Source: Lachnospiraceae bacterium (GTDB lineage: Bacteria > Bacillota > Clostridia > Lachnospirales > Lachnospiraceae). Taken from it: a stretch of 46,637 nucleotides of DNA. Below the pieces are notes generated by a model that saw only the letters and a program-made list of their open reading frames with translations, was not told where the DNA came from and did not search any database. Location: contig JAFYCS010000094.1 of NCBI GenBank assembly GCA_017539565.1, forward strand, positions 1 through 46,637, written 5' to 3'. This document shows, piece by piece, positions 18,713-22,664 of the stretch (position 1 is its first letter; the number at the start of each line of letters is the position of its first letter). Both the position numbers and the translations under genes were made by a program.

Positions 18713-19453
18713 TTATTCTTCATCACAGAATTTATCTATACGATCAAGATTTGATTTCTTTAATTTATATCTACACCGCATCTTTTGTATCGGCTCATCA
18801 AACCCTTTATCCTGGCTGATGACAAAAATACTTTCATAATCCTTATCTACCAGTATTTTATTTAAATCATCCAGTATTCTCATATCAACGGCTTGTTTTC
18901 CTGACTTAACAGGTATAACTTCACCTATGTTTTTTCTTTTTAGCTTAACTATCAGTCCTGGTTGTGTAGCATAGAAAATAAATACATCATCTTCATCCCT
19001 ATAGTCTATGCCTGACATTCCTTCTTTTATATGATTATCTGCATCAAAAATATATAGTTTTTTCTTTTTCGTATCTTCCTTCTTCTTTGATTCTGTAGAT
19101 TGGGGTTCACTGATAACTGTTAGATAGCTAATAACGCTGTTGTCTATCTTTTTAGATTCATAAAAGTGGGAAATCAAATCATGTTTTCTTAGTTCTTTAA
19201 GGCGTAACTGTTCTTGCATGCGCTGTCTTTCCACCTCACCTCTATGCAGCGTTGCCATCCCCCGTGCAACCGATCTTAAAAAATCTGCATAAACCGATGA
19301 ACTCTTAAGTGTAAAAACAACAGATTCCGCCTCTGAGCGCGTACAATCAGTCCATGCCATAATATACCGCACGGCCTGTGATTCACTCTTATGCATCAGG
19401 GCAAAACATGTTCCTCTACATGTAGGATCATTCACAAATCCATCAATCGTCAA
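18713..19453 (-). CDS. PIN-like (NYN-type) nuclease domain protein
   Basis: A 246-residue protein. Residues 130-235 read like a PIN fold: LYIFDADNH gives the first acidic site, AVDMRILDDL the second and VISQDKGFD the third, with the typical order and spacing of PIN/NYN ribonucleases. The first 110 residues form an unknown helical domain with a charged coiled coil (GEVERQRMQEQLRLKELRK). The start appears to be TTG at 19453 with GGAG 10 bases upstream; the first in-frame ATG is 19 codons later. It lies 0.8 kb from a large tRNA array, which makes an RNA substrate plausible but unproven. Confidence 0.6.
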   Translation of the reverse strand: MTIDGFVNDPTCRGTCFALMHKSESQAVRYIMAWTDCTRSEAESVVFTLKSSSVYADFLRSVARGMATLHRGEVERQRMQEQLRLKELRKHDLISHFYESKKIDNSVISYLTVISEPQSTESKKKEDTKKKKLYIFDADNHIKEGMSGIDYRDEDDVFIFYATQPGLIVKLKRKNIGEVIPVKSGKQAVDMRILDDLNKILVDKDYESIFVISQDKGFDEPIQKMRCRYKLKKSNLDRIDKFCDEE

Positions 19454-20563: not shown

Positions 20564-20591
20564 AAAAAACCGCCTGCGCTATGCAGACGGT
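20564..20591 (-). terminator. Attenuator terminator in front of tRNA-Leu(CAG)
   Basis: ACCGTCTGC (20591-20583) pairs with GCAGGCGGT (20577-20569), followed by six T. Its 5' arm overlaps GTCTGCATAGC (20588-20578), which is the perfect 11-base complement of GCTATGCAGAC (20646-20636) inside the leader ORF. The terminator and the antiterminator therefore exclude each other. Confidence 0.9.
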
Positions 20592-20619
20592 CTTAGGAAA
20601 TATCCTTTGTTTATGTCTC

Positions 20620-20712
20620 TTATATACCGAAATCAGTCTGCATAGCAAAATACTCCTTGTTACCGAGGAGAAGAAGTAAGCTATGCAGTTCCAGATTTTT
20701 GTAATTGTTCAT
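20620..20712 (-). CDS. Leucine-rich leader peptide of the tRNA-Leu attenuator
   Basis: A 30-residue ORF with AAAGGA 9 bases upstream of its ATG. Seven residues are Leu, five in a row encoded by TTA CTT CTT CTC CTC (20679-20665). CTGCATAGC just before the run pairs with GCTATGCAG after it. A ribosome stalled at the run would hide the first strand and free the second for the antiterminator; a ribosome at the stop codon would cover part of the second. This is the logic of amino-acid operon leader peptides. Downstream lie tRNA-Leu(CAG), which reads the two CTG codons, and tRNA-Leu(AAG), expected to read CTT and CTC. Confidence 0.88.
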   Translation of the reverse strand: MNNYKNLELHSLLLLLGNKEYFAMQTDFGI

Positions 20713-20740
20713 TGTAGTTATTCCTTTCGTTTATACCGGC

Positions 20741-20788
20741 ATTCTATCACGGTATTTATCCTTTGACAAGTATACTGCTGGTATACTT
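20741..20788 (-). promoter_or_regulatory. Promoter and operator-like dyad of the Leu-Leu-His tRNA unit
   Basis: TTGTCA (20769-20764) and TAGAAT (20746-20741) are 17 bases apart. A perfect dyad AAGTATAC-N5-GTATACTT (20768-20788) overlaps the end of the -35 box, where a repressor or activator would act. On the plus strand the same dyad is followed by T's, but no plus-strand gene precedes it. Confidence 0.75.
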
Positions 20789-22018: not shown

Positions 22019-22513
22019 TTATTTACTTATCTTGTCTGCGATACTCGAAGCCGCAAAACTTTCCGGCTTACACTTTGCCTCAAAGCCACAAGCCCGTATC
22101 CATCCAACCAGGCCGGGGATCAGCTCCTTCGTCTTTCCTATATCTGACCAACCGGCATCTACGTGTATGGACAGCATCGTGTCATCACGCATTTTCTTAT
22201 ACCGGACTTCCTCTTCCAGTTCGCCTACAAGCTCCATCATTACTTCAAGCGATCTTGACGTTTCGGTATTCAGCTTCTGCTTTACATTCGTGATCCGGTT
22301 TATTCTGTCTATCTCATAGAAGAAGATTCCACCGTGACCTTCTTTGTAAGCAGCTATGACCGTAACCATCTTCGTATCATTGAAATTCTGGCTGTCTGTA
22401 CCTACAACGATCTGGAATACACCTTCTGCGCTCTTATTCTTGTTGTAGAATGCCAGGATCTTTTCCGGTATCTGCTCGATATTCAATTTTCCGTATGTTT
22501 CACTCTGGAACAT
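22019..22513 (-). CDS. YkuK-family RNase H-like protein
   Basis: A 164-residue protein embedded in the tRNA array. VVGTDSQNF near residue 40, the following GHGGIFFYEIDR and the late HVDAGWSD are typical of the YkuK (DUF458) family, which has a ribonuclease H-like fold. ATG 22513 is chosen because GGAGG lies 9 bases upstream; the longer open frame would run through a tRNA. A GGTGCA-AA-TGCACC hairpin follows its stop. YkuK's function is not established; the location suggests an RNA-related role. Confidence 0.85.
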   Translation of the reverse strand: MFQSETYGKLNIEQIPEKILAFYNKNKSAEGVFQIVVGTDSQNFNDTKMVTVIAAYKEGHGGIFFYEIDRINRITNVKQKLNTETSRSLEVMMELVGELEEEVRYKKMRDDTMLSIHVDAGWSDIGKTKELIPGLVGWIRACGFEAKCKPESFAASSIADKISK

Positions 22514-22544
22514 TCTACCTTTCCTCCATTCCATCATCCTGCAG

Positions 22545-22664
22545 TTGGAGCACGGGGATTTGAACCCTGAACCAGATGTATATTTTCGGGTTTTCTTCGA
22601 AAACCTTATCGCACCCCCTTCGGGGGTTTGTAAGACACCCACTCTACCATTGAGTTATGCTCCA
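22545..22664 (-). tRNA. tRNA-Val (TAC)-like gene with the 49-base element in the anticodon arm
   Basis: The acceptor TGGAGCA/TGCTCCA and the D arm are identical to the armless copy at 21942. After GGTGT-CTTACAA the 49-base element intervenes, and ACATC, which can pair with GGTGT, follows it. If the loop is read as CTTACAA the anticodon is TAC. The exact insertion boundary is ambiguous by a few bases, so the identity is tentative. One T-stem pair is lost compared with the armless copy. Confidence 0.5.
22583..22631 (-). repeat. 49-base two-hairpin element, copy 2 (in tRNA-Val)
   Basis: It begins ACAAACCC and ends CCCGAAAA. Hairpin 1 is CCCCC-GAA-GGGGG and hairpin 2 is GGTTTTC-GAA-GAAAACC, joined by GCGATAA. 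Compared with copy 1 it has three compensatory base-pair changes. Confidence 0.88.

Follow-up and report, generated by a model that had tools for sequence, protein, structure and literature searches.

Spare tRNA genes of Clostridia lie behind leader peptides rich in their own amino acids: a probable family of ribosome-mediated attenuators

Gut and rumen Clostridia carry clusters of spare tRNA genes behind tiny peptide genes that are rich in the amino acids of those same tRNAs. We propose, with a probability of roughly 0.85, that a ribosome-mediated attenuator controls such a spare tRNA block and senses how plentiful the block's own aminoacyl-tRNAs are. The anatomy of the leaders, their relatives and an in-frame match between the core of the leader and the tRNA set behind it were observed directly in the DNA. 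Over 52 leader/block pairs, the leader samples the amino acids of the tRNAs that it would control.

We analyzed a stretch of 46,637 nucleotides (the window) from a Lachnospiraceae genome of 3.37 Mb with 53 Rfam tRNA hits overall. A sequence-only reading of this DNA had described a leader ORF with a run of leucine codons, pairing strands 1, 2 and 3 and an intrinsic terminator, and when we re-read the minus strand, all of them were found at the same positions. The leucine unit is composed of the following features.

20786-20770, minus strand: palindrome GTATACCAGCAGTATAC, a probable XRE operator, touching the -35 and matching the family palindrome at 14 of 17 positions
20769-20741, minus strand: sigma-70 type promoter TTGTCA-17-TAGAAT, by consensus match only, with TG preceding the -10
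20712-20620, minus strand: leader peptide ORF MNNYKNLELHSLLLLLGNKEYFAMQTDFGI, ATG to TAA, with relatives in loci L014, L015 and L020 and cut copies in L016 and L017
20688-20680, minus strand: strand 1, CTGCATAGC, the codons Leu-His-Ser
20679-20665, minus strand: leucine run TTA CTT CTT CTC CTC
20646-20636, minus strand: strand 2, GCTATGCAGAC, the exact reverse complement of strand 3
20588-20578, minus strand: strand 3, GTCTGCATAGC, inside the terminator
20592-20562, minus strand: strands 3:4, intrinsic terminator of -16.2 kcal/mol just before tRNA-Leu(CAG)
20556-20473, minus strand: tRNA-Leu(CAG), by ARAGORN
20469-20306, minus strand: tRNA-Leu(AAG), interrupted by insertions of 29 and 52 nt, as aligned to the intact copy in L015
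20304-20232, minus strand: tRNA-His(GTG), by ARAGORN
20176-19952, minus strand: XRE/Cro-type HTH protein (HTH_3, 1.7e-8), following the last tRNA

A translatable leader ORF, with the Shine-Dalgarno (SD) sequence AAGGA 9 nt upstream of its ATG, stands ahead of the terminator, as in an attenuator. The complements described in the sequence-only reading were rarely equalled in dinucleotide shuffles: 1 of 5000 for the 11 nt shared by the leader and the 5' arm of the terminator, and 12 of 5000 for the 9 nt shared by the two halves of the ORF. The end of the promoter is separated from the ORF by 28 nt. Since the leucine-leader region holds 7 promoter-like sites against 7.5 in shuffles, the consensus match alone is no proof of a promoter.

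The sequence-only reading also held that the controlled tRNA reads the test codons. At the level of amino acids this stands, over the 52 pairs described below. For the codons of the window copy it is inexact, because tRNA-Leu(CAG), by the wobble rules, reads CUG and not TTA, CTT or CTC, and would alone read only the two CTG codons of the leucine leader. These two CTG codons and a CAT lie right upstream of the leucine run, and they correspond to Leu(CAG) and His(GTG), the two tRNAs of the block that are intact. A search of related genomes, which had been suggested as a check, matched 20800-20440 in 4 of 34 same-genus genomes (G001, G022, G031 and G032), where some matches precede a GNAT gene instead of tRNAs; a further match, in G054, was weak (E 9.1e-4). 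In G001 the order on contig C57 is leader, Leu(tag), Leu(cag), Leu(aag), Leu(caa), His, Leu(taa) and an XRE gene, while five Leu tRNAs follow the leader in G031 and four in G022; Leu(AAG) and Leu(TAA) are both intact in all three. In the window, where neither ARAGORN nor Rfam found a Leu(TAA), the block retains Leu(CAG) and His. The leucine run thus fits the larger block of the relatives. The set available for covariation of the pairing strands comprised 8 sequences, all very alike.

The leucine attenuator was also considered as a widespread sequence, and this was rejected: an exact 19-mer occurs in 13 stretches of genome contigs, 7 of them Lachnospiraceae and the other 6 without a tRNA in the DNA examined. 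A 17-mer matched 6 viral contigs, and none had a tRNA in the DNA examined around the match. Two same-genus matches with one mismatch sit, as judged by eye, in apparent diguanylate cyclase coding DNA. As a separate observation, L009 (1501-1656) and L005 (1654-1500, minus strand) carry a window-type attenuator that has a different leader and precedes a GNAT acetyltransferase gene, without tRNAs. The leader in L009, translated by eye, is MKNIRNQQQHSYYCYLHRDMGHIAMQSDFGI, and the L009 gene was assigned to GNAT by Pfam.

The leucine attenuator is one of three in a dense tRNA array of this Lachnospiraceae genome, which comprises 21 ARAGORN tRNAs on the minus strand at 24075-20232. Rfam gave 23 hits in the window, consisting of 22 tRNAs and one c-di-GMP-I. 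Compared with the closest housekeeping tRNA for the same amino acid, the array tRNAs are 59 to 80% identical (17 of 21 comparable; some comparisons are with other isoacceptors, no counterpart was retrieved for 4 of the 21, and the draft genome is incomplete for some), so we regard the array as a second, divergent tRNA set. Its other attenuators and related features are given below.

24537-24509, minus strand: array promoter TTGACA-17-TATTAT, a consensus match
24398-24225, minus strand: first leader, 57 amino acids, with nearly every amino acid present
24190-24161, minus strand: terminator of the first attenuator, 86 nt ahead of tRNA-Phe
23586-23539, minus strand: mini-ORF MKMEDYYYYCLIDYL, abutting tRNA-Tyr without a terminator
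23028-22987, minus strand: mini-ORF MKRKQKRKYLKPK, abutting tRNA-Lys(TTT), which is followed by Lys(CTT) and Pro
21761-21645, minus strand: second leader MITVVLRQISSQSQQISRSWSIWSGENKISSGMRLKDC, with relatives in L014 and L015
21601-21563, minus strand: terminator of the second attenuator, 7 nt ahead of tRNA-Trp
21556-20794, minus strand: block of the second attenuator by tRNA prediction, Trp, Ser(GCT), Gln(TTG), Ser(TGA), Ile(GAT), Gln(CTG) and Arg(ACG)
21479-21357, minus strand: further tRNA in the second block, Arg(TCT), read by eye

The second leader (MITVVLRQISSQSQQISRSWSIWSG..) fits its block of Trp, Ser, Gln, Ser, Ile, Gln and Arg. The first leader is uninformative on matching because it contains nearly all amino acids.

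Several other elements were noted in and around the array. The mini-ORFs MKMEDYYYYCLIDYL and MKRKQKRKYLKPK, together with MIRLLRLRLRSIQLNYL ahead of a Leu tRNA in L086 (6106-6053), each have an SD and run, without an intervening terminator, up to the 5' end of a tRNA whose amino acid is frequent in the peptide; relatives of the mini-ORFs occur in L014 and L015. Seven further tRNA-abutting ORFs found by the identical rule showed little or no amino-acid match. Two-hairpin inserts of about 45 nt (..CAAACCC-CGAAG-GGGTGCGATA..GGATTCCGAAGGAATCCCGA..) interrupt array tRNA genes and, by eye, sit at differing tRNA positions, the anticodon loop included. They are found in the window at 22615 and 21403, in L014 at 5049, 4720, 4510, 3930, 3224 and 2236, in L016 at 6056, in L017 at 340 and in L020 at 7502. 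A search of the window's own genome with the insert-core pattern gave 6 hits against 9 in the reversed control, no excess. It is tempting to suppose a link between these inserts and RtcB. An RNase H-like protein (PF04308, 2.7e-39) is encoded within the array at 22019-22642. Directly behind the array promoter, at 24500-24450, is a strong hairpin with a T-run, seen by eye also in L014 and L015, which looks like an extra terminator at the start of the transcript with no obvious leader ORF. Shortly downstream of the array, the protein encoded at 18713-19453 weakly resembles PIN7/NYN nucleases (5.8e-6 and 8.6e-5, both short of the curated cut-offs). A phage origin was rejected: in a search of phages for distant similarity, which gave 383 records, the best 20 of the 383 covered at most 3% of the query and mostly fell under tRNA annotations. 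Distant DNA matches to the second attenuator in G022 and G018 had no tRNA.

To collect leaders, we used a rule that is blind to composition: an ATG ORF of 20 to 70 codons, preceded by an SD of at least 4 nt and followed within 60 nt by an intrinsic terminator (-13 kcal/mol or better) that lies outside long same-strand ORFs, and with a same-strand tRNA no more than 2.6 kb further on. When several candidate ORFs preceded one terminator, the one with the best SD was chosen, then the longest. The loci were picked through homologues of the XRE protein, which turned up in 45 of the 392 genomes from the order (E 1e-12) and in 71 of the 397 from the family (1e-17), so arrays without an XRE gene are unsampled. 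The rule returned 52 leader/block pairs in 36 of 76 loci, part of which are not independent of the idea, as it arose from the window and several loci read by eye. In 31 of the 76 loci ARAGORN found no tRNA; L016, cut by a contig end, gave no pair, and L017 is outside the 76. A first, stricter filter (40 entries listed) had dropped cases seen by eye and was loosened after its output had been seen. Applied to the final 52, it keeps 38 pairs and drops 14.

The residues of the leaders match the tRNAs downstream. Among the 52 pairs, 0.335 of leader residues were cognate to the block, compared to 0.223 (sd 0.010) when leaders were dealt randomly to blocks with residue frequencies kept; none of 100,000 permutations reached the observed value. 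Clustering the leaders at 70, 50, 40 and 30% identity, which left 35, 25, 20 and 13 of them, gave z values of 9.5, 8.1, 7.5 and 6.2, each with 0 of 100,000. The 20 representatives at 40% identity matched at 0.370 against 0.236 and the 13 at 30% at 0.421 against 0.268 (both 0 of 100,000). Matching also holds for the 38 pairs kept by the first filter (0 of 50,000), for the 14 that it drops, and for the 42 pairs from outside the window's genus (0 of 50,000). The same DNA read in frames +1, +2 and antisense showed no match signal (z of -0.9, 0.1 and -2.6). A housekeeping control of 25 loci with 29 tRNAs of the source genome, mostly with no more than about 700 nt of upstream DNA and with the long-ORF filter off, which can only add hits, yielded one leader-like ORF, not cognate.

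The signal is confined to one part of the leader. By fifths of the ORF, z was 1.3, 10.1, 10.6, 0.8 and 1.2, so that only the stretch from 20 to 60%, here called the core, contributes. Cores name 182 of 194 block amino acids (94%, against 58% permuted), and those of the 20 representatives name 79 of 86 (92% against 55%). In 26 pairs from 21 loci that were retrieved after the idea had arisen, the core match was 0.402 against 0.219 (0 of 50,000), with 75 of 79 block amino acids named against 49.0. Even within homologous leaders, variation tracks the block: 0.469 against 0.402 (0 of 20,000; 20 distinct cores in 3 clusters). Two clusters carry this effect (0.469 against 0.407 and 0.436 against 0.330); leaders in the third, which includes the first leader of the window, track their blocks no better than chance (0.536 against 0.527). 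At the level of codons the match is weak (195 of 301 codon-anticodon matches against 180.6 expected; 65 of 96 against 60.6 in the representatives), so the test codons correspond to the tRNAs by amino acid and only weakly by codon.

Individual leaders illustrate the correspondence. L086, with a tRNA-His, has H where L095, with tRNA-Tyr only, has Y. Further examples, including those of plasmid pRUMAL01, are the following.

L145, in one array: MRSTMMMREMNMRR.. ahead of Met, Met, and MFTLFLRRPHTMREMAPFRRMNRG.. ahead of Arg, Arg
L175: SSSYVLYLSLLLY ahead of Tyr, four Leu and two Ser
L173: RQHEQEKERCWHRQERQF ahead of Trp, Gln, Lys, Glu, Glu, Phe, Cys, Gln, Arg, Arg and His
L090: INKQFNNKQFMQFCKNQKCF ahead of Gln, Cys, Phe, Lys, Lys, Gln, Asn and Met
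pRUMAL01: leader YLYSESLLSLVLESEE, then Leu, Leu, XRE and Glu
pRUMAL01: leader SYDDYQCFFSFSFDWQD, then XRE, Asp, Gln, Cys, Phe, Gln and Trp
pRUMAL01: leader FSYSYSYSS, then Tyr and four Ser

Plasmid pRUMAL01 belongs to the cultured strain Ruminococcus albus 7 (DSM 20455), which is classed in Oscillospiraceae, and it gave the best plasmid match to the XRE protein. Its leaders are outside the 52, and their core matches of 0.53, 0.61 and 0.67 were equalled by 3, 0 and 0 of the 52 other leaders. It was one of two plasmids examined among 53 records with XRE homologues; the other, pMP118 of L. salivarius, had no tRNA. A phage collection gave 12 records with XRE matches, and we examined two: MT835545, with no tRNA nearby, and MT839421, with three tRNAs. 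The core match of a leader on a "Bacteriophage sp." scaffold was 0.35, equalled by 12 of the 52. Finally, a search by leader similarity matched 13 of 392 genomes; five loci were examined, and two (L215 and L216) had tRNAs behind the leader. L216 showed a mild core match (0.30 against 0.14). L215 is a counter-example, with a Tyr/Ser/Glu leader before Phe, Lys, Lys and Gln (core 0.20 against 0.21 for other leaders); its core nevertheless contains each of F, K and Q, and the array is perhaps a rearranged one.

The sequence-only reading had assigned the leucine leader the classical layout of 1:2, 2:3 and 3:4 pairings, and a fold model lent this support. We replaced equilibrium folding of the full RNA with a cotranscriptional model in which the RNA ends at the terminator loop, and scored the cost of opening the 5' arm of the terminator for each ribosome position. 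For the leucine leader this cost was 2.8 kcal/mol without a ribosome, 10 to 11 kcal/mol with the A site on N-L-E-L-H-S-L-L-L-L (codons 6 to 15, the start being 1) and 2.3 kcal/mol with the ribosome at the stop; shuffles gave 4.6 ± 2.2 kcal/mol at the center of this zone. In the minimum-energy folds, strands 1 and 2 were paired when no ribosome was present or when it stood at the stop, and a ribosome at TTA 20679 gave 2:3, so the model predicts mutually exclusive 1:2, 2:3 and 3:4 pairings. L014, L015 and L020 behave likewise. A three-state switch was absent from the model of the window's other two attenuators, which cost 11.5, 11.1 and 3.3 and 12.1, 11.8 and 9.3 kcal/mol (no ribosome, middle and stop).

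Over all 52 leaders, the modelled arm cost averaged 5.8 without a ribosome, 9.3 at the best position in 15 to 50% of the ORF and 5.0 at the stop, with a rise of at least 2 kcal/mol over the stop in 39 of the 52 and in 11 of the 20 representatives. Cognate codons coincided with positions favoring the antiterminator in the whole set (0 of 20,000), and the coincidence was not significant in the 20 representatives (1346 of 20,000). Zone-centre scores against shuffles were high in the window's genus and near or below zero in many others, among the 50 of 52 leaders listed. When the full-length RNA was folded at equilibrium, the terminator hairpin won at most ribosome positions, so any switch must be kinetic. 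Known attenuators do switch kinetically.

Two proteins recur around these leaders. XRE homologues sit in tRNA arrays of other genera, and a palindrome, TTATACC-ANA-RGTATAA, with at least 14 of 17 matches precedes 29 of the 52 leaders against 0.12 expected from shuffles, a count that is partly circular because some of these sequences had served to define the motif by eye. By eye, the palindrome lies next to or over the -35, and we infer from the sequences that it is a putative operator bound by the XRE protein. The second protein is RtcB, an RNA repair ligase. Copies at least 67% identical to that of L086 (Pfam PF01139, 5.4e-56) occur in 16 of the 36 leader loci; rtcB lies downstream of the leader in 13 of these and upstream of it in the other 3 (L085, L086 and L095). 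The remaining 20 have no close rtcB, some of the contigs being cut, and none was found in the six same-genus loci searched (the window, L014 to L017, and L020). The sequence-only reading of a leader-peptide attenuator before tRNA genes is supported; it is too narrow in scope, as this attenuator is one of three in its array and belongs to a wider family, whose members would often control rtcB too. The unit also occurs without tRNAs, since 21 of 39 loci without a pair show a leader-like ORF and a terminator before rtcB or XRE. As a side observation, L134, L136, L137, L138, L143, L144 and L148 have a leader, rtcB and XRE, with no tRNA detected; they are possibly a tRNA-repair-only form of the unit.

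According to our model, RNA polymerase would start upstream of the leader, at a promoter that is probably also under the control of the unit's XRE protein. As long as charged tRNA is plentiful, the ribosome would reach the stop codon, 1:2 would occupy strand 2, 3:4 would form, and transcription would end before the tRNAs. If a tRNA named by the core were scarce, the ribosome would stall there and cover strand 1. Strand 2 would then pair with strand 3 before strand 4 is made, and the polymerase would enter the tRNA genes and, in many relatives, rtcB. The most sensible trigger would be loss of the tRNA itself, for instance by tRNA-cutting nucleases: the spare tRNAs are 59 to 80% identical to those of the host, RtcB repairs RNA, and extra uncharged tRNA would be useless in starvation. 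The natural trigger is thus probably tRNA damage. At even odds, we extend this to mobile, self-sensing islands of replacement and repair, in which divergent, perhaps nuclease-resistant tRNAs and RtcB would be divided into blocks, each switched on by a leader peptide whose translation would fail precisely when an aminoacyl-tRNA of that block is destroyed. Such islands would serve in defense or counter-defense against tRNA-cutting toxins and phage-defense nucleases with no dedicated protein sensor.

The same attenuator might instead respond to amino-acid starvation or slow charging, the extra tRNA tuning decoding in starvation. We think this unlikely, though it deserves serious attention: the leader itself could not distinguish starvation from tRNA loss, and classic attenuators sense starvation (PMC1183508). 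However, a single block can combine many amino acids (eight in L173), a mixture that suits no biosynthetic signal; RtcB is found in 16 of 36 leader loci; and more uncharged tRNA would, by reasoning, give no relief. It is quite improbable that the leaders sense ribosome-targeting antibiotics, as erm leaders do and like bmrB and ABC-F leaders, with the tRNAs aiding survival of translational stress, as reported for the trn operon of Anabaena. The window-type attenuator does also precede a GNAT acetyltransferase gene, and translation inhibitors induce the tRNA operon of Anabaena (PMC10272220). That operon, however, uses the repressor TrcR, and drug leaders need no match to downstream tRNAs, whereas the match here is in frame and limited to the core.

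A very improbable reading is that the attenuator serves rtcB and XRE, with the tRNAs captured later and the match a by-product of common Tyr, Ser, Leu and Glu. The leader-rtcB-XRE loci with no tRNA detected and the 21 of 39 pairless loci would suit it, but the permutation retains residue frequencies, blocks of Met, of Arg, of Gln/Cys/Phe/Asn, of Trp and of His match too, variation within homologous leaders tracks the block overall, and 20 of the 36 leader loci have no close rtcB, some on cut contigs. Chance or an ORF-calling artefact, which the frequency of short ORFs and the loosening of the first filter might suggest, is practically negligible and already contradicted by the null out-of-frame controls and by the agreement of both filters, the later loci and the R. 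albus plasmid.

The proposed attenuation of spare tRNA blocks shares its parts with known systems. T-box riboswitches provide feedback on tRNA charging in Bacillota; here the feedback would likewise be on charging and would be sensed through translation. No T-box match was found in the window at Rfam gathering scores. As in the attenuators of the trp, his and leu operons, there is a leader ORF with test codons, strands 1 to 4 and an intrinsic terminator. Those attenuators control biosynthetic enzymes, whereas the product here is tRNA genes and often RtcB, and a single leader lists several amino acids (eight in L173) that correspond to the set of tRNAs. The leaders of BmrC/BmrD (PMC4191407) and MsrD (PMC10314930) also exert control by a stalling leader peptide in Bacillota; here, in contrast, the core follows tRNA content, with no sign of a drug signal.

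tRNA array units (PMC5966550, PMC12803027) and the Anabaena trn operon similarly hold a dense spare tRNA set, often on mobile DNA and, in Anabaena, inducible. The Anabaena operon is controlled by the RHH repressor TrcR (PMC10272220), and no leader peptides are named in the abstracts of PMC5966550 and PMC12803027 or in the abstract and introduction of PMC10272220, whereas they are present here. In Salmonella, rtcBA is an RNA repair operon under RtcR and is induced by tRNA fragments (PMC7790460), so that RtcB expression is likewise tied to tRNA damage. There the fragments bind a CARF activator, whereas the leaders described here would sense a missing aminoacyl-tRNA, and spare tRNAs would be made as well. 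Leader-peptide attenuation, tRNA arrays and damage-induced rtcB are each already known. What appears new is tRNA genes as the product and the list-like sensing logic, on a known mechanism. No paper on leader-peptide control of tRNA genes was found among the open-access matches listed, as judged by titles and the openings of abstracts; this is no proof, with subscription papers and preprints largely uncovered.

If our proposal of aminoacyl-tRNA-sensing attenuators is true, these bacteria possess a closed feedback loop in which the cell translates a short "shopping list" and transcribes the tRNAs that are missing. This would explain how large silent tRNA arrays are switched on and would link such arrays to RNA repair. 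Because the list can be read from the sequence, the predictions are sharp: a Met list for Met tRNAs, an Arg list for Arg tRNAs and a Ser-Tyr list for Tyr and Ser tRNAs. R. albus 7 offers a culturable host, and the leader cores could act as ready-made sensors of individual tRNAs.
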